64,000 nucleotides of DNA from Clostridia bacterium. Its GTDB lineage: Bacteria; Bacillota; Clostridia; Oscillospirales; Acutalibacteraceae. The stretch is taken from the NCBI GenBank assembly GCA_017517665.1, contig JAFWYP010000021.1:35988-99987 (forward strand). Direction: 5' to 3'. Numbering within the stretch: position 1 is the first letter of the stretch; the number at the start of each line of letters is the position of its first letter. A model generated the notes under the pieces. The model ran no database searches. It saw nothing but the letters and a program-made list of their open reading frames with translations, and was not told where the DNA came from. Shown one piece after another: positions 44,357 through 57,285 of the stretch. The translations under genes were made by a program, and so were the position numbers.

Positions 44357-44370
44357 GATTATAAAGGTAG

Positions 44371-44400
44371 GGCGGGGGCTTGCTCCCGCCGTTTTTATTT
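44371..44400 (+). terminator. Rho-independent terminator after glnN
   Basis: GGCGGGgGC / GCtCCCGCC stem, then GTTTTTATTT. Confidence 0.85.
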
Positions 44401-44452
44401 AGTATACTTTCTATATACCGCTAATATAATAAAATGAAAAGGGTGTGTACTT

Positions 44453-45292
44453 ATGGAGCTTGGTTTTGTTGAGATAATCAAAGTAATCCTTATCGGCATA
44501 ATTGAGGGAATAACCGAATGGCTGCCGATAAGCAGTACGGGACATATGCTTCTGTTTGATGCTTTTGTGCCGCTTAAAATGAGTGAAGAATTCAAGGAAA
44601 TGTTCTTTGTTGTCATTCAGCTCGGAGCAATCATGGCTGTTGTAGTCATGTTCTGGAAAAAGATGTTTCCGTTCGGTTATGCCGATAAAAAACTTCAGAT
44701 AAAGAAAAGCATAATTATGATGTGGGTCAAGGTTGTTGTCGGATGCCTTCCTGCTGCAATTCTCGGACTGCTTTTTGATGATTTCCTTGAAGAGCATTTC
44801 GGCAATGCTGTCACAATATCGCTCATGCTTATTCTTTACGGTATAGCGTTTATACTTGTAGAAAACAAGAATAAAAACAGCAGACCGAGGATAAATTCAA
44901 TTTCAAAAATCGATTATAAAACAGCGATAATAATCGGACTTTTTCAGGCACTCTCAATGATTCCCGGAACATCGCGTTCGGGCGCAACGATAGTCGGTGC
45001 ACTTCTTATCGGAGTTTCAAGAACCGCCGCTGCAGAATTCACATTCTTCCTTGCTGTTCCAACCATGCTTGGAGCAAGTGCTCTGAAGCTTCTGAAATTC
45101 GGATTTGATTTCAGCGGTGCGGAAATAACGGTTCTTTTAATCGGAATGATTGTTGCCTTTGCAGTATCTCTTTTTGCAATAAAATTCCTTATGGAATATG
45201 TCAAAAAGCATGATTTCAAGGTGTTCGGATGGTATCGCATAGCTCTCGGCGCATTGGTGCTGCTTATATCACTCTTAACGGAAAATATATAA
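44453..45292 (+). CDS. uppP: Undecaprenyl-diphosphatase
   Basis: BacA-type membrane pyrophosphatase, 279 residues with about eight spans, that recycles undecaprenyl pyrophosphate for wall and teichoic-acid synthesis and can give bacitracin resistance. The conserved motifs are GIIEGITEWLPISSTGHMLL near residue 14 and FQALSMIPGTSRSGATIVGALL, holding the catalytic Glu/Arg/Ser residues. The ATG has AAAAGGGTG upstream. Its place after the GT2-TagF gene fits a shared role in surface polymer assembly. Confidence 0.96.
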   Translation: MELGFVEIIKVILIGIIEGITEWLPISSTGHMLLFDAFVPLKMSEEFKEMFFVVIQLGAIMAVVVMFWKKMFPFGYADKKLQIKKSIIMMWVKVVVGCLPAAILGLLFDDFLEEHFGNAVTISLMLILYGIAFILVENKNKNSRPRINSISKIDYKTAIIIGLFQALSMIPGTSRSGATIVGALLIGVSRTAAAEFTFFLAVPTMLGASALKLLKFGFDFSGAEITVLLIGMIVAFAVSLFAIKFLMEYVKKHDFKVFGWYRIALGALVLLISLLTENI

Positions 45293-45324
45293 AAAATCAC
45301 CGCCAAGGTTTAACTTTGGCGGTG
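45291..45324 (-). terminator. Rho-independent terminator at the end of the 2-oxoacid/acyl-CoA operon
   Basis: CACCGCCAA / TTGGCGGTG with a nine-base loop that can extend the pairing (GTT/AAC). On the minus strand it is followed by TTTTTT; the plus-strand T-run is weaker but may also serve uppP. Confidence 0.8.
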
Positions 45325-45332
45325 TAACTGTT

Positions 45333-47015
45333 TTATTTAGCTGAATCGTTCTGACGGATTTCAACTCGTCTGACCTTTCCGCTGAATGTCTTCGGAAGCT
45401 CGTCAACGAACTCAATGATTCTCGGATATTTATATGGAGCTGTGTTTGTTTTAACATATGTCTGAAGCTCTTTTACAAGCTCATCTGAGCCTTCAAATCC
45501 GGGTCGGAGAACAACGGTTGCCTTAACGATAAATCCTCTTACGGCATCAGGTACGCCCGTAACGGCAACCTCAAGCACAGAAGGATGTTCAAGCATAACG
45601 CTTTCAATTTCGAAAGGTCCGATTCTGTAACCCGAGGATTTGATAACATCGTCGTTTCTTCCAAAGTAAACAAATCTGCCCTGTTCATCTCTGTATGCAA
45701 GGTCGCCCGTGTGGAAGAATCCGTTTCTGTAAGCGTCTGCGGTGTCTTCTTCGCTGAAGTTATAGCTTGCAACAACTCCGCAGGGATGCTCTTCGGGTGA
45801 GGGGGACTTAATGCAGATTTCGCCGATTGTACCTCTCTGGCAATGATTGCCGTCCTCGTCAAGGATATGCACCTTGAGTCCGGGGGCGGGGAAACCGATT
45901 GCACCGGGTACGGGCTTTGTCCAGGGATAAAGTGTGCAGATGCTTACGGGAGTTTCACTCATGCCGAAGCCCTCGTGAATTTCAAGACCCGTTGCCGCTT
46001 TCCACTTGTTGAATATATCTGCGTTGAGTGCCTCGCCTGCAGTGCAGCAATGCGTGATTGATGAAAGATCGTATTTGCTCACATCATTCTGAAGCATGAG
46101 TCTGTACATTGTAGGGGGAACGCAGAAAGTTGTAACCTTGTATTTTTCAAGCTTTGAAAGGATATCCGCGCCGTCAAATTTATCAAAGTCATAAACAAGG
46201 TTTGCGCTTTCGCCCATCCACTGACCGTAATATTTGCCCCAGAGGGATTTTGCCCAGCCCGAGTCCGAAACGGTGAAATGCATTCCGCCGTCAACAACTC
46301 TGTGCCAGAAAACGCCCGTCATAATGTGACCGAGGGGATATTTGAAGTCGTGGGCGATGATTTTGGGATAACCTGTTGTGCCTGATGAAAAGTTGATAAT
46401 CATTGTGTCATCAACCGTTGTTGCGGCATCACCCGTGGGTCTTGTCCATTCTTCGCTTGCATTGTCGAAGCCGTTTTCAAAGTCAATCCAGCCGTCAACA
46501 GCCTTATGCTTTGTTACAAACTTCTTTTCGATGGTTTCGTATTCGTCTTTTCTGTCATCAAAATACTCTGTGCAGTTATCGTCGCCCGTGATAATGGCAT
46601 ATTTTATCTTCGCCTTATTGCAGCGGTAGACGTAATCCTTGCCTTTGAGCATATTTGAAGCGGGTACCATGATTGCACCGATTTTGTTGAGTGCAAGAGT
46701 GATAACCCAGAAAAGATAGCTTCTTTTAAGGATAAGCAGAACGGGGTCGCCCTTCTTAACGCCTTCGGAAACAAGATAGTTTGCGGCTTTATCCGAAAGA
46801 CGTTTCATATCGCCGAAGGTAAATCTTTTTTCTTCTCCGATGTTTGAAACATAGAGAAGGGCAAGCTTATCGGGCTTTTCCGTGCCGAGAACATCAATAA
46901 CATCATATGCATAGTTAAAATCGTTCTCGTATGTTATATTAAAGTTTTCCTGGCAGTCCTTGAGAGAAATGAAAGAATCTCTTGATCTGCCTATGAATTT
47001 TTCATAAATCGGCAT
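45333..47015 (-). CDS. AMP-forming acyl-CoA synthetase (acetyl/medium- or branched-chain type)
   Basis: ANL-superfamily ligase of 560 residues, last gene of the operon. The phosphate loop is INFSSGTTGYPK near residue 208, followed by GEALNADIFNKW, HEGFGMSETP (A5), FHTGDLAYRDEQGRFVYFGRNDDVIKSSGYRIGPFE-type A7/A8 blocks and the catalytic Lys in FSGKVRR near the C-terminus. Overall it resembles the medium-chain acyl-CoA synthetase (MACS) group more than acetyl-CoA synthetase Acs. Alongside a 2-oxoacid oxidoreductase and IlvE it may act on branched-chain acids (inference). Confidence 0.88.
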   Translation of the reverse strand: MPIYEKFIGRSRDSFISLKDCQENFNITYENDFNYAYDVIDVLGTEKPDKLALLYVSNIGEEKRFTFGDMKRLSDKAANYLVSEGVKKGDPVLLILKRSYLFWVITLALNKIGAIMVPASNMLKGKDYVYRCNKAKIKYAIITGDDNCTEYFDDRKDEYETIEKKFVTKHKAVDGWIDFENGFDNASEEWTRPTGDAATTVDDTMIINFSSGTTGYPKIIAHDFKYPLGHIMTGVFWHRVVDGGMHFTVSDSGWAKSLWGKYYGQWMGESANLVYDFDKFDGADILSKLEKYKVTTFCVPPTMYRLMLQNDVSKYDLSSITHCCTAGEALNADIFNKWKAATGLEIHEGFGMSETPVSICTLYPWTKPVPGAIGFPAPGLKVHILDEDGNHCQRGTIGEICIKSPSPEEHPCGVVASYNFSEEDTADAYRNGFFHTGDLAYRDEQGRFVYFGRNDDVIKSSGYRIGPFEIESVMLEHPSVLEVAVTGVPDAVRGFIVKATVVLRPGFEGSDELVKELQTYVKTNTAPYKYPRIIEFVDELPKTFSGKVRRVEIRQNDSAK

Positions 47016-47033
47016 TACGTATCTCCTGACTGA

Positions 47034-47582
47034 TTATTTGAGTACGAGCGCAATAAACTCCGCCTGAGTATCGCCTACGTTTTTATGTGCGTGGGGAATG
47101 CTGGAATCGAAATATGCGCTGTCGCCTTCATTCAGCTCATAACAGATGTCGCCGATATAGAGCAGAAGACTGCCTGAAATAACATAATCAAATTCCTGAC
47201 CCTCATGTTCGTCCATTACGGGAGGATTGCCTGAGGGGTCAATTTTAACAAGGAACGGCTCTGCTTTTTTAGATTTAAAGGTGTATGCAAGATGTTGGAA
47301 TTCATAGCCTGGGTTACGGTTAACAATAAAACCCTTGTTCTTCTTAACAACCGTGCAGGTTGAAAGACGGGGAGATTCACCGCTGATGATATCAAGAATA
47401 TCAACGCCGAGAATAAGAGCGATATTGTTAAGGGTACTGATGGCGAAGTCATATTCGCCATGCTCGAAAGCAATGTAATTATCTTCGGAAATATCAAGCT
47501 TTTCAGCCATATCGGTTGCGGTAAGACCGCAGGTTTCGCGAAGAGAAGCAACTCGCAGGCCTATTTCTTTTAATTCAAGCAT
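47034..47582 (-). CDS. XRE-family regulator with C-terminal cupin
   Basis: A 182-residue protein: helix-turn-helix (RVASLRETCGLTATDMAEKLDI, about 9-30) and a cupin sensor domain (DEHEGQEFDYVISGSLLLYI, LNEGDSAYFDSSIPHAHKN) that could bind a small ligand. Located inside the operon, 22 bases after korC and 18 before the acyl-CoA synthetase gene, it is a natural candidate for the operon's own regulator. Start at 47582 with GGAGG upstream. Confidence 0.88.
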   Translation of the reverse strand: MLELKEIGLRVASLRETCGLTATDMAEKLDISEDNYIAFEHGEYDFAISTLNNIALILGVDILDIISGESPRLSTCTVVKKNKGFIVNRNPGYEFQHLAYTFKSKKAEPFLVKIDPSGNPPVMDEHEGQEFDYVISGSLLLYIGDICYELNEGDSAYFDSSIPHAHKNVGDTQAEFIALVLK

Positions 47583-47604
47583 GGGGGTTCCTCCTTGATT
47601 TTAA

Positions 47605-48135
47605 TTAATAGTTGTAGCCAAGCTCAACAGCCTTGATGTTAAGCTCGATAAGGTTCTGCTTTTTTGCAGGAACAAGCTTTGTCATTGTCTTTTCAACATT
47701 TTCATAGGGCATAACGCCTGCATGCTTAATCATGTGACCGATCATAATCATGTTTGCAAGACCGGGGAGGTTCTCATCCGAAGCAAGCTTTGTTGCGGGA
47801 ATATAGAAAACTTCAACGTCATCTCTTTCAACCTTGCGGTCGATGAGTGAGCTGTCAACAAAAATCTTTGCACCGGGAACAGCACTGTTCTCAAACTTAT
47901 CAAGAGAAGGAAGGTTCATCGCAACAAGAACGTTGGGGTTTGAAACGATGGGTGAACCGATTTTTGTATCGCTGAGAATAACGGAGCAGTTACATGTGCC
48001 GCCTCTCATTTCGGGACCGTAGGAGGGGAGCCAGCTTACTTCTCTGTCTTCAAGAAGACCGTCATATGCAAGGAATTTTCCCGAGAAAAGGATACCCTGA
48101 CCGCCGAAACCGGCAAGAAGAATCTCATATGTCAT
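47605..48135 (-). CDS. korC: 2-oxoacid:ferredoxin oxidoreductase, gamma subunit
   Basis: A 176-residue gamma domain protein: LLAGFGGQGILFSGKFLAYDGL at the N-terminus, SWLPSYGPEMRGGTCNCSVILS, and NLPSLDKFENSAVPGAKI are the family blocks. It is the third catalytic subunit of the four-gene oxidoreductase, two bases after korB. The subunit pattern D-A-B-C (ferredoxin first) is that of 2-oxoglutarate or 2-oxoisovalerate oxidoreductases; the substrate is not decided by sequence alone. Confidence 0.9.
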   Translation of the reverse strand: MTYEILLAGFGGQGILFSGKFLAYDGLLEDREVSWLPSYGPEMRGGTCNCSVILSDTKIGSPIVSNPNVLVAMNLPSLDKFENSAVPGAKIFVDSSLIDRKVERDDVEVFYIPATKLASDENLPGLANMIMIGHMIKHAGVMPYENVEKTMTKLVPAKKQNLIELNIKAVELGYNY

Positions 48136-48137
48136 AA

Positions 48138-48890
48138 TTATTCTGCCTCCTTTTCTGCGGTTTTATCTTTATAAACACCGAGAGGATAATAAGGAATCAT
48201 GTTTTCTTCAAGCCACTCAAGAGCCTTGTCGGGCTTGAGACCCCAGTTTGTGGGGCAGGTGGAAAGAACTTCAACAAGTGAGAAGCCCTTGCCTTCAAGC
48301 TGATTCTGGAAAGCCTTTTTGATTGCCTTCTTTGCAGCCTTTACATTCTTGACGTTGTTAACGGCAACTCTTTCAAGATATGTTGCACCGTCAACATTTG
48401 AGAGAAGCTCGCAAACCTTAACGGGAAGACCGACCTGCTCGGGATTTCTGCCGTAAGGAGAAGTCTGTGTAACCTGACCGGGGAGAGTGGTGGGAGCCAT
48501 CTGACCGCCTGTCATGCCGTAGATTGCGTTGTTAACAAAGATGATGGTGATGTTTTCGCCTCTTGCAGCCGCATGAACTGTTTCGGCAGTACCGATAGCT
48601 GCAAGGTCACCGTCGCCCTGATATGTGAAAACAACATTTTCAGGGAGTGAACGCTTAACACCTGTTGCAACTGCGGGAGCTCTGCCGTGTGCAGCTTCAA
48701 TCATATCGCAGTTGAAATAATTATATGCAAATACCGAGCAGCCTACGGGTGCAACACCGACTGTTCTGCCCTCGATTCCAAGCTCGTCAATAACCTCGGC
48801 AACAAGGCGGTGGATAATGCCGTGTGTGCAGCCGGGGCAATAATGAAGGGGTACATCGGCAAGTGCCTTGGGTTTTTCAAAAACTATCAT
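48138..48890 (-). CDS. korB: 2-oxoacid:ferredoxin oxidoreductase, beta (TPP-binding) subunit
   Basis: A 250-residue thiamine-diphosphate subunit. The TPP/Mg motif is seen as GDGDLAAIG ... NNAIYGMTGGQMAPTT, and the N-terminal HYCPGCTHGIIHRL carries a conserved Cys pair near the iron-sulfur partner. CDMIEAAHGRAPAVATGVKR is a standard block. Its ATG overlaps the korA stop by one base. The enzyme interconverts a 2-oxoacid + CoA and acyl-CoA + CO2 with reduced ferredoxin, in principle in either direction. Confidence 0.92.
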   Translation of the reverse strand: MIVFEKPKALADVPLHYCPGCTHGIIHRLVAEVIDELGIEGRTVGVAPVGCSVFAYNYFNCDMIEAAHGRAPAVATGVKRSLPENVVFTYQGDGDLAAIGTAETVHAAARGENITIIFVNNAIYGMTGGQMAPTTLPGQVTQTSPYGRNPEQVGLPVKVCELLSNVDGATYLERVAVNNVKNVKAAKKAIKKAFQNQLEGKGFSLVEVLSTCPTNWGLKPDKALEWLEENMIPYYPLGVYKDKTAEKEAE

Positions 48891-49960
48891 TATTTGTCAC
48901 CTCCGACGGAATTTGCTTCGTTGATAGAATTAAGTACATCTTCTGTTGTGGGAATCATACCGCCTACACGGTTGCAGAGAAGAACGGGCTTCTTGCAGCG
49001 TGTTGCGAGTTCGATATCCTCAATCATCTGACCCATTGAAAGCTCAACGCTGATGAATGCCTTTACTTTGTCAGCAGCGGCATTGAGAACAGCCTTGGGG
49101 AAGGGCCAGAGGGTGATGGGTCTTATCATACCCACTTTGATGCCCTGAGCGCGTGCCTTATCAATAGCATTCTGTGAAACTCTTGCAGCAACACCGTATG
49201 CAACAATGCAGATTTCGGCGTCATCCATCATGTATTCATCATACATAACTTCTTCAGCTTCAATCTTTGCATATCTTTCGTAACGCTCAAAGTTGTATCT
49301 TTCGAGTTCATCGGGCTGAATGAAGAGAGAGTTGACAACGTTGTGCTCTCTTTCGCAGTTTGTACCGCATGCTGCCCAGCCTGATTTGTCATATTCTTTG
49401 ATTTCGCCCATATCAAGTGAAACGGGTTCCATCATCTGACCCATTGTGCCGTCTGAAAGAAGCATAACGGGCATTCTGTATTTGTCTGCAAGGTCAAAGC
49501 CCTTGAATGTGAGGTTAACCATTTCCTGAACGGAAGCAGGAGCAAGAACAACAAGGTGGAAGTCACCGTGACCTGCGCTCTTTGTTGCCTGGAAATAGTC
49601 GGACTGTGAAGGCTGGATACCGCCGAGACCGGGGCCGCCTCTCTGCACATTGATAATAAGAGCGGGAAGGTCTGAACCTGCAAGATATGAAATGCCTTCG
49701 CTCTTGAGCGCAATTCCGGGGCTTGAGCTTGAAGTCATTGTTCTTTTACCTGCTGCTGCAGCGCCGTAAACCATGTTGATTGCGGCGATTTCGCTTTCAG
49801 CCTGAAGGAATGTGCCGCCGATAAGGGGCATTCTTTTTGCCATATATGCGGCAACTTCTGTCTGCGGAGTTATGGGATAACCGAAGTAATGACGGCAGCC
49901 TGCCATGATAGCAGCTTCCGCAAGAGCTTCGTTACCTTTCATCAATACTTTTTCAGCCAT
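48890..49960 (-). CDS. korA: 2-oxoacid:ferredoxin oxidoreductase, alpha subunit
   Basis: A 356-residue alpha subunit: KGNEALAEAAIMAGCRHYFGYPITPQTEV, MVYGAAAAGKRTMTSSSSPGIALKSEG, PALIINVQRGGPGLGGIQPSQSDYFQAT and VMLLSDGTMGQMMEPV are highly conserved in Kor/Vor alpha chains. The C-terminal domain (VGMIRPITLWPFPKAVL, FISVELSMGQM) is present. It follows the ferredoxin subunit by 12 bases. Confidence 0.92.
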   Translation of the reverse strand: MAEKVLMKGNEALAEAAIMAGCRHYFGYPITPQTEVAAYMAKRMPLIGGTFLQAESEIAAINMVYGAAAAGKRTMTSSSSPGIALKSEGISYLAGSDLPALIINVQRGGPGLGGIQPSQSDYFQATKSAGHGDFHLVVLAPASVQEMVNLTFKGFDLADKYRMPVMLLSDGTMGQMMEPVSLDMGEIKEYDKSGWAACGTNCEREHNVVNSLFIQPDELERYNFERYERYAKIEAEEVMYDEYMMDDAEICIVAYGVAARVSQNAIDKARAQGIKVGMIRPITLWPFPKAVLNAAADKVKAFISVELSMGQMIEDIELATRCKKPVLLCNRVGGMIPTTEDVLNSINEANSVGGDK

Positions 49961-49972
49961 TATTCTTTCTCC

Positions 49973-50179
49973 TTACTTTTCAACGGTGATTACGCAGTCG
50001 GGACACATTGTTGCGCAGAAAGCGCAGCCGATGCAGGCTGACTGGTCTGTGATGCCTGCGGGATGATAACCCTTGGCGTTGATTTCGTCTTTAAGCAATG
50101 CCACAATCTTTTTGGGGCATGCACCAACGCAAAGACCGCAGCCTTTGCAAAGGTCTGTTTTAAAGGTTACTTTTGCCAT
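49973..50179 (-). CDS. korD: 2-oxoacid:ferredoxin oxidoreductase, delta (ferredoxin) subunit
   Basis: A 68-residue 2[4Fe-4S] ferredoxin with two CxxCxxCxxxCP-type clusters: CKGCGLCVGACP at residues 11-22 and CIGCAFCATMCP at about 49-60. It is the electron outlet of the oxidoreductase and first gene of the korDABC block. It has AGGAGGAAG upstream. The 163-base gap before it holds a 161-bp imperfect palindrome. Confidence 0.93.
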   Translation of the reverse strand: MAKVTFKTDLCKGCGLCVGACPKKIVALLKDEINAKGYHPAGITDQSACIGCAFCATMCPDCVITVEK

Positions 50180-50196
50180 AAATCTTCCTCCTAATG

Positions 50197-50357
50197 GTAA
50201 CCACTGAATAAATCGCAGTCACGATTCTCAGCGGCTATTTTTCTGTCATAAATGCCAAAAATACTCGTTAATACACAAAGTATTGCCTGCGTTTTTTGAC
50301 ATTTCTGACTTAAAACTTTCTCGCTGATAATCGCAACACGATTTAATCAGCGGTTAC
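50197..50357. repeat. Imperfect 161-bp palindrome (MITE-like or multi-hairpin element) between the P-loop gene and korD
   Basis: Outer arms start GTAACC / GGTTAC and contain two related hairpins: 50201-50234 (CTGA..AATCG/CGATT..TCAG) and 50320-50353 (GCTGAtAATCG/CGATT..TCAGC). Further inward GTCAtAAATGcCAAAAA pairs with the reverse complement of the right side. The right arm includes the last codons and stop of the P-loop gene. No transposase is present. Confidence 0.6.
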
Positions 50358-51026
50358 TTTTGCCCACGATTGCTTTACATAAAGCTTTATCGGTGTGCAA
50401 TTTACAACTTTATCTTTAAGTGTATCAAATAAATCTTCTTTTACGGTGGTCATTCTTATCGGCAAAGAACTTGCTTTTGAAATTTCTTCGGCATAACCGA
50501 TTGAAGAAATAACATCTTCTGCGGTTGTTTCGTCACCGAGATTGGAATTGTTGACAATTCCCGTGAACTTCATTCTGCAAGCGGTTTCGATTTCTCTCAT
50601 AACCCCGATTGTTGAAGCGCAGTCGGGAGTGAGAGGTCTGAACTTGTTGATGACAAGCAGATATTCATAATCATTCTGTTCGATTATTGACGGTGCGTAT
50701 CTTCCGAGTGCAAGTGCACCTCTGTCATCACCGCCGACATCAACAACTGCTCTTACCGATAAATCATCTATAATCGAATAAGCTTCTGCGGGCAAAGCGG
50801 GAACATCAACATTTGAATTCGCATATTCCGAAGAAATAAGGTGAATTCCTCTTGCTTCAAGATGTTTTTCGCTGTCTTTGGTTCTGAAATAGGGGTTTAC
50901 AATGTCGAGGTCGGCAATGCTTACCTTATCAAATTCTTCACGAAGACGCAGAGCATAGTTGACTGCTATGTTTGTTTTGCCGCTTCCGTAATGACCTGCA
51001 AAGACTGTTATTCTTTTGCTTTCCAT
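50343..51026 (-). CDS. P-loop NTPase of the MinD/ParA/CobQ type, function unknown
   Basis: A 227-residue soluble ATPase. The deviant Walker A loop VFAGHYGSGKTNIA lies near residues 8-21, VSIADLDIVNPYFRT follows as switch region, and VVDVGGDDRGALALG as Walker B-like region. No membrane helix or cysteine motif is seen. The ATG at 51026 comes one base after the ilvE stop, without a clear ribosome site, suggesting coupled translation. Its place between ilvE and korDABC suggests an accessory role, perhaps cofactor loading of the oxidoreductase as in Mrp/NBP35 relatives, but this is inference. The C-terminal codons lie in a palindromic element. Confidence 0.75.
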   Translation of the reverse strand: MESKRITVFAGHYGSGKTNIAVNYALRLREEFDKVSIADLDIVNPYFRTKDSEKHLEARGIHLISSEYANSNVDVPALPAEAYSIIDDLSVRAVVDVGGDDRGALALGRYAPSIIEQNDYEYLLVINKFRPLTPDCASTIGVMREIETACRMKFTGIVNNSNLGDETTAEDVISSIGYAEEISKASSLPIRMTTVKEDLFDTLKDKVVNCTPIKLYVKQSWAKVTAD

Positions 51027-51027
51027 A

Positions 51028-52092
51028 TCAAAGAACTTTAACCCAGCCGAACTTGTCTTCAACTGTGCCGCCCTGAATACCTGTTACGGTATCATAGAGC
51101 TTCTGGCTGATTTCGCCGATTTCACCGCCATTGATTGTCATAACATCGTCCTTATAGCGGAGCTTGCCGACGGGTGAAATAACTGCTGCGGTGCCAGTGC
51201 CGAAGCATTCTTCAAGAGTTCCGTTCTTCTGTGCTTCAAGAAGTTCGTCAACGGAAATCTTTCTTTCTTCAACAGGAAGACCCCAGCTCTTGCAAAGCTC
51301 AATTACGGAGTTTCTTGTGATACCGGGAAGAATGCTGCCGTTGAGCATCGGAGTAACTATAGTGCCGTTAATCTTGAAAAAGATGTTCATTGCGCCTACT
51401 TCTTCGATATATTTTCTTTCAACACCGTCAAGCCAGAGAACCTGTGAATAACCGTCGTCATGTGCCTTAACCTGAGCTGCAAGGCTTGCTGCGTAGTTAC
51501 CGCCTGTCTTTGCAAAGCCCATGCCGCCCTTAACAGCTCTTACATAGTCGTCTTCAATCCAGATGCCTACGGGAGCAAGACCGCTTGAATAGTAAGCACC
51601 TGAGGGGGAGAGGATAACGATGAAGAGATAAGTCTTTGAAGGAGCAACGCCGAGGAAATCGTCTGTTGCAATGATGAAGGGACGGATGTAGAGTGATGTG
51701 CCGGGAGCTGAAGGAATCCAGTCGCGGTCAACATCAACAACTGCGCTTACAGCCTGAACGAAATCTTCAACGGGAAGCTCGGGGATGCAGAGACGCTTGT
51801 TTGTATCGTTTGTTCTCTTTGCGTTCATTTCGGGTCTGAAAAGACGGACTTCGCCGTCAGCGCCCTTGTAAGCCTTAAGACCTTCAAACATTTCCTGACC
51901 ATAGTGGAAAACCATGCAAGCGGGGGAAAGGCTGAGGTTTGAATAAGGAACTATGCGGGGGTCATGCCAACCCTGACCCTCTGTATAATTCATAACAAAC
52001 ATGTGGTCGGTAAAGATTTTTCCGAAGTCGAGATTGCTTTCGTCGGGCTTCTGTTTGGGAGCGGTTGTTCTCTCAATTTTAATATTTAACAT
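51028..52092 (-). CDS. ilvE: Branched-chain amino acid aminotransferase
   Basis: PLP fold-type IV transaminase, 354 residues, connecting Val/Leu/Ile with their 2-oxoacids. YTEGQGWHDPRIVPYSNLSL, FHYGQEMFEGLKAYKG, RLFRPEMNAKRTNDT, TSLYIRPFIIAT, GGNYAASLAAQVKAHDDGY with the nearby PLP region, VLWLDGVERKYIEEVGAMNIFF and CFGTGTAAVISPVGKL mark the long (eukaryote-like) IlvE subgroup. The ATG at 52092 follows AAAGGGTG. Its location next to a 2-oxoacid oxidoreductase and acyl-CoA synthetases suggests work on branched 2-oxoacids in that pathway. Confidence 0.95.
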   Translation of the reverse strand: MLNIKIERTTAPKQKPDESNLDFGKIFTDHMFVMNYTEGQGWHDPRIVPYSNLSLSPACMVFHYGQEMFEGLKAYKGADGEVRLFRPEMNAKRTNDTNKRLCIPELPVEDFVQAVSAVVDVDRDWIPSAPGTSLYIRPFIIATDDFLGVAPSKTYLFIVILSPSGAYYSSGLAPVGIWIEDDYVRAVKGGMGFAKTGGNYAASLAAQVKAHDDGYSQVLWLDGVERKYIEEVGAMNIFFKINGTIVTPMLNGSILPGITRNSVIELCKSWGLPVEERKISVDELLEAQKNGTLEECFGTGTAAVISPVGKLRYKDDVMTINGGEIGEISQKLYDTVTGIQGGTVEDKFGWVKVL

Positions 52093-52113
52093 TTTTAACA
52101 CCCTTTCGGTAAT

Positions 52114-54624
52114 TTAATTTCTGGAAAGTCCGAGTTTTGTGGCGAATTCTTCTCTCATTTTATATTTGAGAATCTTACCTGCCGCATTCTTCGGGAAATC
52201 TTCAACAAATTCTATATAGCGCGGAACTTTATGTCTTGCCATATGGGATTTGATATAATCTGACATTTCTTCGGCTGTCATGCTGCATCCTTCTTTGAGA
52301 ATAATGCAAGCCATGATTTCTTCGCCGTAGCGTTTGTCCGGAACGCCGATAACCTGAACATCCTGAACATAGTCATGAGTGAATATGAACTCCTCAATTT
52401 CACGGGGATAGATGTTTTCACCGCCTCGGATAATCATATCCTTGAGTCTGCCCGTAATGAGATAATATCCGTCAGGTCTTCTGCAGGCGATATCTCCTGT
52501 ATGAAGCCAGCCTTCTTTATCTATTGCCGATTCTGTTGCTTTGGGCATTTTATAATAACCTTTCATTATGTTATAGCCTCTTGCAACAAATTCACCGTTC
52601 TCGCCGTCGGGGAGTTCTTCGCCGGTTTCGGGGTCGATAATCCTGCATTCAACGTTCGGGAATGCGCTTCCGACAGTTTCTGTTCTGTCTTCAAGCGATT
52701 CGTTGACTTCGCCCATTGTGCATCCGGGAGAAGCTTCGGTTTCGCCGTAAACGGAAAGAATTTCCGTCATGTTCATTTCTGCAGCTGCGCGCTTCATAAG
52801 GTCGGGAGGACAGTTTGCACCTGCCATGATACCCGTTCTCATATAAGAGAAATCGGTCTTTGCAAAATCCTCATGCTGGAACATTGCAATGAACATGGTG
52901 GGAACGCCGTTGAAGCAGGTGATGTGCTCCTGATGAACGCAGGCAAGCGATGATTTTGCCGAGAAATAGGGGAGAGGGCAAAGAGTTCCGCCGTGAGTCA
53001 TCATTGAAGTCATCGAAAGCACCATGCCGAAGCAATGGAACATCGGAACCTGAATCATCATTCTGTCGGCTGTGGACATATCCATTCTGTCGCCGATTGT
53101 TTTGCCGTTGTTAACGATGTTGTAGTGAGTGAGCATAACACCCTTGGGAAATCCCGTTGTACCCGAAGTGTACTGCATATTGGCAACATCGTGGCAGTCA
53201 ACTGCAGCGGCTCTGCGGTAAACTTCCTCAACGGGAACTCTTACCGCCATATCCATGGCTTCTTCCCATGTAAGGCAGCCCTTCTGACGGTAGCCTACCG
53301 TTATGATGTTGCGAAGGAAGGGAAGCTTTCTGCAATGGAGAGGTTTACCCGGAACTGCAACCTCGAGTTCGGGACAAAGCTCTGCAATGGACTGTGCATA
53401 GTTTGAATCAAGACACGATTCGATGGTAATGAGTGTGTGAGTATCGGACTGTCTGAGAAGATACTCAATCTCGTGGATTTTATATGCTGTGTTTACGGTA
53501 ACAAGAACAGCACCGATTTTGGTTGTTGCCCAGAAGGTGATAAACCACTGGGGAAGGTTTGTAAGCCATACGGCAACCTTGTCGCCGGGCTTAACGCCGA
53601 GAGCAATGAGTGCTCTTGCGCAGTTGTCAACATCATCGCGGAACTGTGAGTATGTTCTTGTATAATCGAGAGTTGTGTACTTATAAGTAATCTGGTCGGG
53701 GAATTTTTCAACCATTGTATCAAGCACTTCAGAGAAGGTTTTGTTGATGAGCTTGTACTTTTCCCAGACAAACTTGCCCGTACCGCTTCTGTTTTCGTAA
53801 AGAAGCTCCTCGCTTTTTTTCTTTTTATCGTAATTTGAAATTGAATTCACAAAGTGGGGGAACACGATTTCTGCAATGCCGAAATCCTCCATGGTTTCGG
53901 GTTGGCATTCATATGAAAGAAAACCGTCATAGTTGACCGATTCAAGAGCATTGAGCATTGTCTGAATCGGAAGTGAACCTTCGCCAATAAGGCGATATTT
54001 CACTTCGCTGTTTTCAACAACCGAATCCTTGACATGAACGTGTTTTATATATGCGCCGAGATTTGTGATTGTTGTGTCAGGCTCTTCTCCGAAATCTCTG
54101 TAGGGATGGTTGATATCCCAGAGAGCTGCGAGATTGTCGCATGCGAAAATGTTGAGAAGGTCGCGGAGTCTTGAAGTGTCCGCATAAATGCCTACTGTTT
54201 CAACAAGAAGTGCAACATTATCCTGCTCAGCTTTTTCGATTACCCTGCCGATAAGTGAGATAACGTTTGAATCTTCAACGGTTTTTTCTTCGCCCGTTGC
54301 GTATGCATGAATTCTGACATAGGGACATCTGATTCTTGCAGCAATTTCAATCGCCGTTGCGATTTCTTCATAGCTTTCATCCGCAATTGAAGCATCCGCA
54401 ATGTTGCAGAATGTATCAAGGCAGGAAACCGTGAGCGAGTTCTCGCGAAGCTTGTGGACGGTTGCGGAAGAATTCTGTTTATTGAAAGGCGCATCGTTAC
54501 CGGTGAACCTTTCGTCTGTTATGTTGTGGATTTCGATACCTGAAAATCCGAGGTCGTTGGCAGTGCTTACAAATTCTGACCATGAAAGCTCCTGCCATCC
54601 GTTTGTGGAAAATGACAGTTTCAT
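52114..54624 (-). CDS. Fusion of a sugar-isomerase-type TIM barrel and an AMP-forming acyl-CoA ligase
   Basis: An 836-residue fusion. Residues 1 to about 265 form an AP-endonuclease-2/xylose-isomerase-like barrel with probable metal ligands E142 (LLVETVG), D170 (ALWDINH), H197 (HVHVKD) and E239 (LSYECQP). A short linker leads to an ANL ligase (about 290-836): phosphate loop QYTSGTTGFPKG at 484-495, SVYGETEASPG, HTGDIACRRPDGYY, RLKDMIIRGGENIYPREIE and the C-terminal lysine in NAAGKILKYKMR. The ligase part resembles medium/long-chain fatty acyl-CoA synthetases. There is no stop or frameshift between parts. The start overlaps the LeuA-like gene by four bases. What the barrel does to the ligase substrate is unknown. 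Confidence 0.85.
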   Translation of the reverse strand: MKLSFSTNGWQELSWSEFVSTANDLGFSGIEIHNITDERFTGNDAPFNKQNSSATVHKLRENSLTVSCLDTFCNIADASIADESYEEIATAIEIAARIRCPYVRIHAYATGEEKTVEDSNVISLIGRVIEKAEQDNVALLVETVGIYADTSRLRDLLNIFACDNLAALWDINHPYRDFGEEPDTTITNLGAYIKHVHVKDSVVENSEVKYRLIGEGSLPIQTMLNALESVNYDGFLSYECQPETMEDFGIAEIVFPHFVNSISNYDKKKKSEELLYENRSGTGKFVWEKYKLINKTFSEVLDTMVEKFPDQITYKYTTLDYTRTYSQFRDDVDNCARALIALGVKPGDKVAVWLTNLPQWFITFWATTKIGAVLVTVNTAYKIHEIEYLLRQSDTHTLITIESCLDSNYAQSIAELCPELEVAVPGKPLHCRKLPFLRNIITVGYRQKGCLTWEEAMDMAVRVPVEEVYRRAAAVDCHDVANMQYTSGTTGFPKGVMLTHYNIVNNGKTIGDRMDMSTADRMMIQVPMFHCFGMVLSMTSMMTHGGTLCPLPYFSAKSSLACVHQEHITCFNGVPTMFIAMFQHEDFAKTDFSYMRTGIMAGANCPPDLMKRAAAEMNMTEILSVYGETEASPGCTMGEVNESLEDRTETVGSAFPNVECRIIDPETGEELPDGENGEFVARGYNIMKGYYKMPKATESAIDKEGWLHTGDIACRRPDGYYLITGRLKDMIIRGGENIYPREIEEFIFTHDYVQDVQVIGVPDKRYGEEIMACIILKEGCSMTAEEMSDYIKSHMARHKVPRYIEFVEDFPKNAAGKILKYKMREEFATKLGLSRN

Positions 54625-56033
54625 ATAGCTTTCTCCTCGTAGACAATTTTATTGAGTGCGTTGATATAAGCAACTATGCTTGCGCCGATGATGTCTGTTG
54701 AAATACCCTTGCCGGAATAAAGCTTGCCGTTTGAACGGAGCTTAACAAGAGCCTCACCCATAGCCTCGCGGCCTTCGGTAACTGACTGAATCTGGAAATC
54801 GTCAAGCTCGTAGTGGTGACCTATAATCTGTTCGATTGTGTGGAAAGCGGCATCAATCGGACCGTCACCCATGCAGACTGCTTTGAGTGTTCTGCTGCCT
54901 TTTTCAAGAATAATGTTTGCAGTTGAGGAAATAACGTTTCCTGCGTTGATAACATAGCTCTGGAGCCTGTATGTGGGAGGTACCTGATGAGCAACGTTTG
55001 CAATAATCGCATCAAGCTCTTTTGCGCCGACCTGCTTTTTGACTGAAACATTCCTGAATGCTTCAAAAACCTTTGCTGTATCATCTTCCGAAAGCTCATA
55101 GCCGAGAGAAACGATTGCGTTGCTTACCTTTGCAATATCGGCTGTGTCGTCAAGAAGAACGGTGCTTCCGTATTCACCGATGCCCTCGGATGCGGCAAGA
55201 TTCTTATGAGTCTCGCTTGTCATGCGGAGAATCTGACCTGCCGAATGGTTGATTGCCATTGAATTAACGGAATAGCTTACGTCAAGTGTATGACCTTTGA
55301 CCTGAAGAGCCTTCATAACCTTTTCGAGGTCTGCCATTGTTTCGCTGCCGACGCAGGTTTTTATCTGTGTTGCACCCGCACCTACGCAGGCAAACACACA
55401 AGCATTTGCCATATCAAGAGCATTGCTGCATTCAACTCCGAGAGCAATATCTTTGACTGCAGGAACAGTTTCGTAAAGCTCACTGATAAGTGAAACAAAT
55501 TCGCGGGGAAGGAAAGCACCTGCGGTATCACAGAGAGTAACGGTTTTTGCACCGTTTTCAATTGCAGCTTCAACTGCCTTGAAAAGATACTCTTTTTCGG
55601 CTCTTGTTGCATCAACGGCGGAAAATTCAACATCACCGCAGATTGATGCGCAGTGAGCGGTCAGAGTGCCGATAAGCTCAAGCATCTGAGCAGGCTTCTT
55701 ATGATAGAAATATTCCATCTGAACTGCCGATACGGGAAGCGAAACAACGAGTCTGGGTTTCTTTGTTCCCGCGATGGACTTCATTGCTCTGTCTGCTTCT
55801 TCGACCGTACTGCCGACGGGACAGGATAGGATGCTGTTCTTTAGGAGGGGGCTTATAGTGCGCAAAACGAGTGTATCAATTTTTTCGTCGGTAATCTGAG
55901 CTGCTTCGATAACATCAATGTTGAGTTTGTCAAGCAGCTTTGCAATTTCAAGTTTTTCCTTGAAACTGAGGGCGATATCACCCTTGCGTGCGCACTCTCT
56001 GAGGGTTGCGTCTGTGATGGTGATTTTTTTCAT
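54621..56033 (-). CDS. LeuA-like (2-isopropylmalate/citramalate synthase family) protein with altered active site
   Basis: A 470-residue protein with the IPMS layout: TIM barrel (1 to about 280), linker and complete C-terminal LeuA regulatory domain (about 365-470, PPTYRLQSYVINAGNVIS to STDIIGASIVAYINALNK). The catalytic signatures are changed: the TLRDGxQ start reads TLRECARKG (residues 10-18), the metal HxH motif reads ECS at 201-203, and the GxGERxGN loop reads VGSETMADLE near 228. DATR at 141-144 and CDTAG at 168-172 remain. It may have a different reaction or be a leucine-type sensor. Start at 56033 follows AAAGGAGA; first gene of the operon. Confidence 0.8.
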   Translation of the reverse strand: MKKITITDATLRECARKGDIALSFKEKLEIAKLLDKLNIDVIEAAQITDEKIDTLVLRTISPLLKNSILSCPVGSTVEEADRAMKSIAGTKKPRLVVSLPVSAVQMEYFYHKKPAQMLELIGTLTAHCASICGDVEFSAVDATRAEKEYLFKAVEAAIENGAKTVTLCDTAGAFLPREFVSLISELYETVPAVKDIALGVECSNALDMANACVFACVGAGATQIKTCVGSETMADLEKVMKALQVKGHTLDVSYSVNSMAINHSAGQILRMTSETHKNLAASEGIGEYGSTVLLDDTADIAKVSNAIVSLGYELSEDDTAKVFEAFRNVSVKKQVGAKELDAIIANVAHQVPPTYRLQSYVINAGNVISSTANIILEKGSRTLKAVCMGDGPIDAAFHTIEQIIGHHYELDDFQIQSVTEGREAMGEALVKLRSNGKLYSGKGISTDIIGASIVAYINALNKIVYEEKAI

Positions 56034-56120
56034 GCTAATCTCTCCTTTTTGAACAGCATACTCTGACGGAATATGCAATTTTTTGCTGGTAAATATACTT
56101 ATGCACTATAAGTTCTTTAT

Positions 56121-56149
56121 ATTATATATAAACAGATTGATAAAGTCAA
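56121..56149 (-). promoter_or_regulatory. Promoter of the ten-gene 2-oxoacid/acyl-CoA operon
   Basis: Minus strand TTGACT (56149-56144), 17 bases, TATAAT (56126-56121). About 80 bases of leader follow; I see no T-box or attenuator in it. The rest of the 291-base gap (56034-56324) holds only the terminator listed next. Confidence 0.8.
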
Positions 56150-56269
56150 CCCGAATTTGACTATCAAAACCCGTGCCGAAAAAAATCGTAGACTGCAACA
56201 ACTTTAATTTTTTAATGTTAAAAATGTATGTACATTTTGCACAATGGAAAAGATATCAATTTGTTGAAA

Positions 56270-56309
56270 ACAGAAAAGAAAAGCAGCCGGAGAACGAGTC
56301 TCCGACTGC
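56270..56309 (-). terminator. Rho-independent terminator of the galT-lipoprotein unit
   Basis: Minus strand GCAGtCGGAGA / TCTCCGgCTGC, five-base loop, one mismatch, followed by TTTTCTTTTCTG. Confidence 0.8.
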
Positions 56310-56324
56310 AGATTAATGTATTGA

Positions 56325-57236
56325 TTAATACTTGAAGTTCTTGTACAAGATGTGAGATGAACCAGTTGCGTTGCCGCCGCCTGCAACGTCGATAACAACG
56401 TTGATGTCGTATTCTACGGTAAGGCTTACAAGGTGACCTGTTGCAACATCGATAACTGCAACGATTGTTGCGTTATCATAGCTTTCTTCGATAACCGCAC
56501 CGCTGACAACCTGACCTACTGCTGCATAGATAACGGGAGCAGTTTTGTGGTCGAAGTAGCTCTTATCAAGATCGCCGACGCAGATACCGCACTTATCAAT
56601 GGGAGAATTGTTGTAGGATTCGTTCTTTGAAGCCTTGCTGTTACCGGGCTTAACATTGAATTTGATTGTGTACTTGCCGTTACTTTCTGTGCAGGTTGCG
56701 CTTGTTATATCAGAAGTTGAAAGAGTGCTCTTTCTGAGATAATGATGAGGAACGTCGTCTTCCCACTGTCCCTTTGTAACATCCATTGTGTACTTGTTTT
56801 CAGCGCCGATACCCATGAATGAGTAAACAAGGTCACCGAATGTCTTGAGAAGGAAACCCGCGTTGAGTTCTTCGTTGTCTGTGTAACGTTCTTTGTTGAA
56901 GCCAACCCTTGCTGCATATGCTTTGTTTACAGCGTTGTTGTAGTATGCAACGATTTCTTCTGCTGTTGCGGGAGCTGCTGCGGGTACTGTTGATTCTTCT
57001 GCAACAGTTGTTTCGCCTTCAACGGGAGCGGCTGTTGTGTCACCCTCAACGGGAGCAACTGTTACGTCGCCTTCAGCAAGTGCTGCTGTTGTGTCTTCTT
57101 CAACGGGAGCAGCTGTTGTGTCGATTTCATCTGCTGCTGTAGTGGTTGTTGTGTCTGCTGTTGTGTCGTCCTTACCGCATGCTGCAAAGCTGAAAAGAAG
57201 TGCAGCAGCAAGGAAAAGTGCGAGAATTTTTTTCAT
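56325..57236 (-). CDS. Lipoprotein with Thr/Ala/Glu repeat linker, unknown function
   Basis: A 303-residue lipoprotein: signal MKKILALFLAAALLFSF with lipobox AAC, then a low-complexity linker (about 22-85) containing four nine-residue repeats of the TTAAPVEGD type. The remaining 215 residues form a folded domain (TAEEIVAYYNNAVNKAY, QVVSGAVIEESYDNATIVAV, HLVSLTVEYDINVVIDV) that I do not recognise; the end pattern resembles FMN-binding-like or DUF domains of Clostridia lipoproteins only loosely. The linker probably spans the peptidoglycan so that the domain reaches the surface. It follows galT by 49 bases, with AAAGGAG before the ATG. Confidence 0.8.
   Translation of the reverse strand: MKKILALFLAAALLFSFAACGKDDTTADTTTTTAADEIDTTAAPVEEDTTAALAEGDVTVAPVEGDTTAAPVEGETTVAEESTVPAAAPATAEEIVAYYNNAVNKAYAARVGFNKERYTDNEELNAGFLLKTFGDLVYSFMGIGAENKYTMDVTKGQWEDDVPHHYLRKSTLSTSDITSATCTESNGKYTIKFNVKPGNSKASKNESYNNSPIDKCGICVGDLDKSYFDHKTAPVIYAAVGQVVSGAVIEESYDNATIVAVIDVATGHLVSLTVEYDINVVIDVAGGGNATGSSHILYKNFKY
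57010..57117. repeat. Four tandem 27-bp repeats in the lipoprotein linker
   Basis: Units at 57010-57036, 57037-57063, 57064-57090 and 57091-57117, each encoding nine residues. Three share the core TCAACGGGAGC; the third has diverged (TCAGCAAGTGC). Confidence 0.85.
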
Positions 57237-57285
57237 GGGAATACTCCTTTCATATTTAACACCTTGCGGTGTTTATTCCAAAATA

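Follow-up and report, generated by a model that had tools for sequence, protein, structure and literature searches.

The operon and its genes

The stretch analyzed here, referred to as the window, comprises 64,000 nucleotides of contig JAFWYP010000021.1 from a Clostridia bacterium of the family Acutalibacteraceae (assembly GCA_017517665.1), a 2.77-Mb draft genome that is 88.7% complete. Between positions 45333 and 56033, ten genes lie on the minus strand, and an earlier note, made from the sequence alone, had read them as an operon that converts branched short-chain acids into branched-chain amino acids, or the reverse. The ten genes, their common strand, and their order were confirmed, and 8 of 134 distinct related loci show the identical set in unchanged order, which is more than a chance arrangement. 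The analysis points to a likely route from branched acids to valine, isoleucine, and leucine, carried mostly by genomes without the de novo pathway, and to a LeuA-like protein that appears to have lost catalysis. In operon order, with VorA, VorB, VorC, and VorD denoting the alpha, beta, gamma, and delta subunits of a 2-oxoacid:ferredoxin oxidoreductase (here VOR), the genes are as follows.

54621..56033, minus: putative LeuA-like pseudoenzyme, 470 amino acids; degenerate HMGL barrel and LeuA_dimer domain; proposed leucine sensor
52114..54624, minus: TIM-barrel (xylose-isomerase-like)/AMP-forming acyl-CoA ligase fusion, 836 amino acids; proposed isovaleryl-CoA ligase
51028..52101, minus: IlvE, branched-chain amino acid aminotransferase type II; NCBIfam PRK13357, TIGR01123
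50343..51026, minus: SIMIBI-type P-loop ATPase, 227 amino acids, ATG at 51026; proposed VOR accessory or maturation factor
49973..50179, minus: VorD, 2x[4Fe-4S] ferredoxin-type delta subunit; Fer4 matches, with OGOR_delta and PorD_KorD below cut-offs
48890..49960, minus: VorA, alpha subunit of the oxidoreductase (NCBIfam "VorB"); PRK07119, POR_N, PFOR_II
48138..48890, minus: VorB, beta subunit, thiamine pyrophosphate-binding; TPP_enzyme_C, with all NCBIfam matches below cut-off
47605..48135, minus: VorC, gamma subunit; POR domain, 124 bits
47034..47582, minus: XRE helix-turn-helix and cupin regulator; HTH_19, Cupin_2; a separate gene in the window
45333..47015, minus: MacS/MbcS-type acyl-CoA synthetase (the second ligase); proposed isobutyrate/2-methylbutyrate ligase

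Two modules across related loci

Conservation was assessed in two sets of loci: 59 stretches, each no longer than 20 kb, taken from genomes of the order (a 60th fetched stretch proved to be the own genome's second MacS-type ligase), and named contigs, limited to the 80 best among at least 588 that were confirmed. Removal of one locus with a true LeuA (L089) left 138 loci, of which 134 were distinct after those with identical LeuA-like ends had been merged. Motif counts refer to the 139 unmerged rows, among which a few contigs were fetched twice, and per-locus gene counts are lower bounds, since many loci are broken by contig ends.

The LeuA-like protein and the TIM-barrel/ligase fusion (module 1) lie together in all 134 distinct loci, a few of them partial at contig ends. 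The second module consists of IlvE, the P-loop ATPase, VOR, the XRE-cupin regulator, and the MacS/MbcS-type ligase; across the 134 loci, VorA was present in 56, the ATPase in 56, IlvE in 60, and the second ligase in 52. The earlier note had suggested that the fusion, the LeuA-like protein, and the ATPase be sought next to the oxidoreductase genes in other genomes, and they were indeed found together with VorDABC in relatives. The single operon that it had envisaged holds for the eight loci with the exact order; the modules occur rearranged in many more, and the operon is made of two mobile modules rather than one fixed unit. Named carriers are almost all labelled as metagenome-assembled, many from the ruminant gut, and three are labelled Salinivirgaceae or Bacteroidetes.

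Several other genes were observed beside module 1. An Amidohydro_2-family protein (269 and 305 amino acids in two scanned loci; none in the window) lies nearby in 29 of 136 loci, such as L066 and L159, and immediately after the fusion in 22. A gene resembling pyruvate:ferredoxin oxidoreductase (PFOR; 1165-1193 amino acids) follows module 1 in L036, L038, L121, L133, L149, L159, and L166, with IlvE in between in L149 and L166 and the amidohydrolase in L159; L036 and L121, and likewise L038 and L133, are apparently the same contigs, each fetched twice. In such loci, PFOR may stand in for VOR. The next gene in L036 shows a sub-cut-off resemblance to binding proteins of ABC transporters for branched-chain amino acids, and L103 and L151 show oxidoreductase- and ligase-like matches close to module 1. 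Some loci, including L039 and L078, carry neighbors that we take to be indolepyruvate-oxidoreductase-like, phenylacetate-CoA-ligase-like, and ACT-domain-like genes. These aromatic-type neighbors suggest a parallel system of ligase and amino-acid sensor for aromatic amino acids.

Loss of the active site in the LeuA-like protein

Although the LeuA-like protein of the window matches the Pfam families HMGL-like (113 bits) and LeuA_dimer (102.4 bits; cut-off 24.9), it falls under every curated NCBIfam cut-off among 17 matches, the best reaching 297 bits against a LeuA cut-off of 532. In LeuA, the metal site consists of the Asp after the catalytic Arg and of HxH, and the GERAGN and GIHQ(D/H)G segments belong to the active site. 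Among the 139 LeuA-like members, the first metal His is kept in none, the second in one, and both in none; the metal Asp is kept in 2, and all 139 show a gap where GERAGN has its Glu. The GIHQ segment is missing in all six aligned proteins (the window's and five others), with L139 keeping part of the stretch, and the Asp of the DTVG/DTAG motif is retained in 138 of 139. As a control, 20 true LeuA proteins of the own family, of another LeuA type than the LeuA-like protein, were considered: all six motif residues were present in each of the 18 found by motif search, and L186 and L191, which did not fit that search, were judged by curated score. In a tree of 39 LeuA-like members and 17 canonical proteins, the former make up a single clade with support of 100/99. 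Judged from these residues, the protein appears to be a pseudoenzyme (hereafter pseudo-LeuA) in which catalysis has been lost.

Its conservation runs opposite to that of the enzyme. In pseudo-LeuA, the regulatory domain scores 0.78 and the barrel 0.57, compared with 0.59 and 0.81 in true LeuA of the own family; only the direction of this difference is informative, as the control is of the other LeuA type and the samples differ in breadth. Such a reversal fits what is expected of a protein retained for ligand sensing, and by analogy with its domain family, the regulatory domain would bind leucine. Of the two roles first proposed for this protein, leucine sensor or new condensing enzyme, the former is favored and the latter is not.

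The aminotransferase, the oxidoreductase, and the ATPase

IlvE exceeds the curated cut-offs of PRK13357 (508 bits; cut-off 307) and TIGR01123 (412; cut-off 250). All four subunits of a VOR/KOR-type oxidoreductase are present together. Its alpha subunit reaches 539.8 bits with PRK07119, the VorB model (cut-off 399), and passes no pyruvate or 2-oxoglutarate model, whereas the best sub-cut-off matches of the beta and delta subunits are of the 2-oxoglutarate type. The label Kor in the earlier note is thus better replaced by Vor, and its proviso that the enzyme should not prove specific for pyruvate or 2-oxoglutarate is borne out by the alpha subunit and not by the sub-cut-off matches of the other two. 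Specificity for branched 2-oxoacids is a tentative suggestion from the automatic VorB label of the alpha subunit.

The P-loop ATPase had been called an orphan, which it is in annotation but not in its genomic company, as 53 of the 56 loci with VorA also contain it. It belongs to the CbiA/ParA class: CbiA matches were obtained for all 35 aligned members (E up to 0.01, best 9e-9) and the Walker A motif GHYGSGK is invariant, although the window member alone lies under the Pfam cut-offs. Comparison with solved structures gave only weak ArsA/MinD-like matches around the Walker A motif. That it helps to mature VOR is a guess.

The acyl-CoA ligases

The fusion contains AP_endonuc_2 (residues 21-242), AMP-binding (304-691), and AMP-binding_C (742-817) domains. 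Its YTSGTTGFPKG motif shows no variation among the fusions (132 of 132), the remaining ligase motifs are mostly retained, and the ligase domain looks active. The metal set E-D-H-H-E of the TIM barrel is complete in 28 of 135 fusions, the window protein included; the barrel may therefore be catalytic here and merely structural elsewhere.

The second ligase finds its best PDB match in 3etc (615 bits, residues 11-559), which PMC10455477 identifies as MacS of Methanosarcina acetivorans, with 2-methylbutyrate as preferred substrate. A Trp occupies the position of MacS Trp259, located by counting from the YHTGD motif as numbered in PMC10455477, in all 82 homologues (the window's and 81 from the loci). 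The best NCBIfam match is MbcS, at 416 bits under a cut-off of 850. According to PMC10026030, MbcS of Staphylococcus aureus accepts 2-methylbutyrate and isobutyrate but acts poorly on isovalerate, and a separate isovalerate ligase is expected for this reason.

Whereas the XRE-cupin protein is encoded by its own gene in the window, 72 of the 81 ligase homologues from the fetched loci carry this domain within the ligase open reading frame. On another contig of the own genome (C41; L034, 9693-11978), there is a fused XRE-cupin/acyl-CoA synthetase of 761 amino acids, with no further operon homologue found in the 20-kb stretch that was fetched. In loci with two copies, the MacS-type ligases fall on opposite sides of a single tree split in 26 of 27 cases (support 0.75). 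The genome thus holds three candidate ligases, namely the second ligase of the operon, the fused ligase of C41, and the TIM-barrel ligase, for three acids, and their assignment to individual acids is inferred.

Absence of ilv and leu genes in carriers

The genomic distribution was examined in 295 genomes of the order, of which 67 carry the LeuA-like protein and 228 do not. Of 68 initial matches, that of G203 (locus L089; 32-35% identity, canonical LeuA motifs) was counted as a non-carrier. Searches for leuB, TIGR00973, hisD, the MacS-type ligase, LeuA_dimer, and leuD-like genes covered 60 of the 67 carriers and 20 own-family non-carriers, with G133, G142, G160, and G171 (partial matches) and G233, G269, and G276 (low completeness) left out. 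Absence means no match at the E-value set for the respective search.

The earlier note had asked whether carriers lack complete ilv/leu pathways, and they mostly do. ilvC was found in 7 of 67 carriers versus 135 of 228 non-carriers, and ilvD in 10 of 67 versus 137 of 228; among those ten, G042 and G113 are below the curated cut-off, as is G276 by E-value. Both genes are missing in 57 carriers and 88 non-carriers. Carriers span 14 families and 37 genera, and 31 of these genera include no carrier with ilvC; Fisher p-values for ilvC and ilvD ignore kinship and are descriptive only. Among the 26 own-family genomes of the sample, the division is complete: ilvC and ilvD occur in 0 of 6 carriers versus 20 of 20 non-carriers, leuB over cut-off in 0 of 6 versus 19 of 20, and leuD-like genes in 0 of 6 versus 19 of 20, all of the latter matches being below the curated cut-off. 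The absence of de novo ilv/leu genes is therefore a strong tendency among carriers and complete in the own family. Since hisD is kept in 6 of 6 own-family carriers, 20 of 20 own-family non-carriers, and 54 of 60 tested carriers overall, this is not a general loss of amino acid synthesis, and genome reduction as its cause was not supported.

TIGR00973 was uninformative as a test for true LeuA (1 of 80 genomes matched), because the own-family non-carriers use another LeuA type, and a LeuA_dimer search was used in its place to count LeuA genes. Each of the 26 own-family genomes contains exactly one LeuA_dimer gene, which is pseudo-LeuA in carriers and true LeuA in non-carriers (18 of these show all motifs of the set, and two were assigned by curated score). 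VorA with at least 70% identity to that of the window occurs in 43 of 67 carriers versus 10 of 228 non-carriers, and any VorA at E 1e-110 in 57 of 67 versus 113 of 228. Of the 60 tested carriers, 57 have a match to the MacS-type ligase, and 51 have matches at two places or more.

Probable leucine specificity of module 1

Two carriers of one genus, G060 and G245, keep ilvB, ilvN, ilvC, and ilvD and should therefore make valine and isoleucine. Neither shows leuB, a leuD-like gene, or a LeuA_dimer match beyond pseudo-LeuA, and neither yielded a MacS-type ligase match or a VorA match at E 1e-110. After their module 1, at a distance of 123 bp in G060 and 39 bp in G245, comes a PFOR-like gene whose product has 1167 or 1179 amino acids; that of G245 is pyruvate:ferredoxin oxidoreductase by curated model, and that of G060 was judged by length and similarity. 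A third carrier, G014, keeps ilvN, ilvC, and ilvD, has no leu genes, and has VOR and one MacS-type ligase. The gene content of G060 and G245 points module 1 at leucine, and a leucine-specific module is fairly likely.

Promoter, terminator, and candidate operator

Genes within the operon are closely packed, with the exception of a 163-bp spacer before VorD that had not been mentioned before. The LeuA-like and fusion genes overlap by 4 nt, and gaps of 12 nt (fusion-IlvE), 1 nt (IlvE-ATPase), 12 nt (VorD-VorA), 2 nt (VorB-VorC), 22 nt (VorC-regulator), and 17 nt (regulator-ligase) were found, with a 1-nt overlap between VorA and VorB. The mostly tight spacing described in the earlier note is confirmed apart from this one point, and its single promoter and single terminator were both recovered.

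56121..56149, minus: promoter, sigma-70-type TTGACT-17-TATAAT; 11 of 12 consensus matches; kept in 4 of 4 aligned close relatives
56097..56113, minus: candidate operator, inverted repeat ACTTATAGTGCATAAGT; adjoins the -10 box
50180..50342, minus: spacer before VorD, 163 bp; a single long imperfect hairpin, z -7.9
45298..45324, both strands: terminator hairpin; 12-pair stem with a T-rich tail on both strands; common to the operon and the convergent uppP

The promoter is the sole 11/12 match within the scanned region, while promoter-like matches overall are not in excess (21 observed versus 20.9 in shuffles). The hairpin at 45298-45324 is a two-way terminator that serves both the operon and uppP.

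The inverted repeat has a single match in the window at up to three mismatches (0.10 expected). Its core CTTATAGTGCATAAG occurs in four close relatives and, beyond these and the own locus L004, in none of 203 fetched loci; exact 6-bp arms are shared only by the window and L095, with the other close relatives differing at the end pair. The repeat was absent from all five more distant loci with a separate regulator gene (L037, L099, L106, L115, and L144), of which L099 has no IlvE. Since the core is confined to the own locus and four close relatives, the repeat is a candidate operator at the genus level, and that the XRE-cupin protein binds there is a guess.

No open reading frame of 50 or more amino acids was found in the spacer, and a search of the own genome for a repeat family matched only the spacer itself. 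It is missing in four close relatives, in which the ATPase and VorD frames overlap; the window ATPase stops four residues sooner than those of L095 and L096. No Rfam element was detected at gathering scores within 44300-57300. Upstream on the same strand, a probable secreted lipoprotein with TTAAPVEGD-like repeats (56325-57236; judged by eye, no NCBIfam match) was observed. Close to the 3' end of the operon lies a glutamine-synthetase-like protein of 695 amino acids (42269-44356) with a weak type I match only, which we presume to be type III.

Proposed pathway and alternative explanations

In the pathway that we propose, the ligases would activate isobutyrate, 2-methylbutyrate, and isovalerate to CoA esters, VorDABC would carboxylate these using CO2 and reduced ferredoxin, and IlvE would transaminate the resulting 2-oxoacids to valine, isoleucine, and leucine. 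The second ligase and the fused ligase of C41 would handle isobutyrate and 2-methylbutyrate, and the TIM-barrel ligase isovalerate. Pseudo-LeuA would act as a leucine-binding subunit that shuts the TIM-barrel ligase when leucine is plentiful, the XRE-cupin protein would act as repressor of the operon at the inverted repeat that adjoins the promoter, and the P-loop ATPase would help to mature or energize VOR. What the analysis establishes is the gene content, its conservation, the loss of LeuA active-site residues, and the genomic replacement of ilv/leu; all substrates, the gating by leucine, the owner of the operator, and the task of the ATPase are inferred. The pathway by itself is likely. 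The explanation as a whole, in which the operon replaces the de novo branched-chain pathway and pseudo-LeuA gating is included, is in our judgment probable, with substantial room for error, whereas the chances of direct leucine gating of the TIM-barrel ligase are about even. A more specific architecture, somewhat less probable than not, is a two-protein allosteric ligase in which the former LeuA serves as a leucine brake docked on the TIM barrel (whose metal site is lost in most relatives), accompanied by sister ligases with a built-in XRE-cupin regulator, so that one chain both activates the acid and controls transcription.

The operon could also run in reverse, with branched-chain amino acids being deaminated and VOR oxidizing the 2-oxoacids to acyl-CoA and branched acids with a gain of reduced ferredoxin. 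Both VOR and the transaminase can work in either direction, and in archaea VOR is known from peptide fermentation. However, the ilv/leu genes are mostly missing in carriers, which fits a need for synthesis; the ligases belong to AMP-forming families, which favor acid activation; and a leucine-regulatory domain on the partner of a ligase fits feedback on synthesis. The earlier note had left the direction open; because carriers are mostly without the de novo pathway, biosynthesis is favored and oxidation is unlikely.

Slightly less credible is that the ligases feed branched acyl-CoA primers into branched-chain membrane fatty acids, with VOR connecting this pool to 2-oxoacids. The best NCBIfam match of the second ligase is MbcS, which according to PMC10026030 supplies the synthesis of branched-chain fatty acids in S. 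aureus. Yet, among gene clusters that recur in at least five neighborhoods, IlvE and VOR are frequent and no fatty-acid gene was recognized (with model-based identification for part of the clusters), and the inverse relation to ilvC, ilvD, and leuB speaks for amino acid supply. The two uses may coexist.

We give about the same low credence to the possibility that the substrate of module 1 is a different acid, for example an aryl acid, with only an indirect link to branched-chain amino acids. The aromatic-type genes near some loci (named tentatively from sequence or from weak matches) and the frequent amidohydrolase are in keeping with it. On the other side, the regulatory domain is that of the leucine pathway, module 1 stands in for true LeuA on a one-to-one basis within the own family, and G060 and G245 lack, among the genes tested, the leucine branch only. 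Finally, a new condensing enzyme with altered chemistry is very improbable and was rejected. In its favor, the barrel is recognizably HMGL-like and almost always keeps its DTVG/DTAG Asp; against it, the metal Asp is kept in just 2 of 139 and the His pair in 0 of 139, the segments around GERAGN and GIHQ are missing, and the barrel is the less conserved half of the protein.

A number of observations weigh against the biosynthetic explanation and temper our confidence in it. VorA was found in just 56 of the 134 fetched loci, and at E 1e-110 a VorA match is missing in 10 of 67 carriers. Neither VorA nor the MacS-type ligase is a marker alone, as a less similar VorA occurs in 8 of 20 own-family non-carriers and the ligase in 10 of 20, at one place each. 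The 88 non-carriers without ilvC and ilvD indicate that pathway loss does not require this system. Conversely, leuB over cut-off together with ilvC occurs in 4 of 60 tested carriers (G089, G192, G222, and G254), seven more have a leuB match below cut-off, and five have a leuD-like match. Contamination is 4% in G192 and G254, and G089 and G222 are not contaminated. G089, G222, and G254 hold module 1 beside complete-looking pathways; G089 has a second LeuA_dimer gene, which failed the motif search, and the LeuA_dimer copies of G192 are all pseudo-LeuA. A second LeuA_dimer gene is also present in G016, G025, G061, and G087, with canonical motifs in the three that were fetched. No solved structure matched the LeuA_dimer regulatory domain by sequence, and leucine binding rests on family membership. 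Moreover, the complete metal set in the window protein means that the barrel may still be catalytic, the case for leucine specificity comes from two genomes of one genus plus G014, and the window's own genome is incomplete. The earlier note's interpretation is supported.

Significance and comparison with known systems

The formation of leucine by rumen bacteria through carboxylation of isovalerate has been reported since the 1960s, and the operon supplies candidate genes for it. Pseudo-LeuA and the TIM-barrel ligase constitute a marker pair with which branched-acid-dependent gut anaerobes could be predicted from genomes, and the operon offers a test of how branched-acid flow is controlled. The system has a bearing on isoacid feeding as an aid to fiber digestion, on the culturing of uncultured gut Clostridia, and on the turning of a metabolic enzyme into a sensor. 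It also carries a warning for annotation, as pseudo-LeuA could be called LeuA by similarity and its hosts mis-scored as part-way leucine producers.

The branched-acid route in rumen anaerobes was defined by isotope work, and carboxylation of branched acids leading to leucine, valine, and isoleucine was reportedly described by Allison (1966), Robinson and Allison (1969), and Allison and Peel (1971). The operon shares its predicted chemistry of activation, ferredoxin-dependent carboxylation, and transamination with this volatile fatty acid route. According to PMC7356843, isovalerate is carboxylated and aminated to leucine, and isobutyrate and 2-methylbutyrate are precursors of valine and isoleucine; some rumen methanogens need the same acids, as stated in PMC10658910. 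The chemistry is therefore already known. Our literature search, which most subscription papers lay outside, returned the pathway and the ligases and no account of this gene set, of pseudo-LeuA, or of the fusions; nor did it yield an operon assigned to the route, or a description of the pairing of sensor and ligase or of the fusion of regulator and ligase.

The similarity of the second ligase to MacS extends over almost the entire protein and includes the Trp259 position; the ligase differs from the MacS/MbcS enzymes in its partnership with an XRE-cupin regulator, which in most homologues is part of the same protein. The oxidoreductase has the four-subunit layout of the VOR/KOR family and an alpha subunit above the curated VorB cut-off, and differs in traveling with a P-loop ATPase. 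Pseudo-LeuA shares the HMGL barrel and LeuA_dimer domain of LeuA, and in the tree its clade emerges from an unresolved fork together with two LeuA proteins of the bacterial type and three further canonical proteins. It differs from LeuA in being without the active-site residues and segments, with the regulatory domain as its conserved part.

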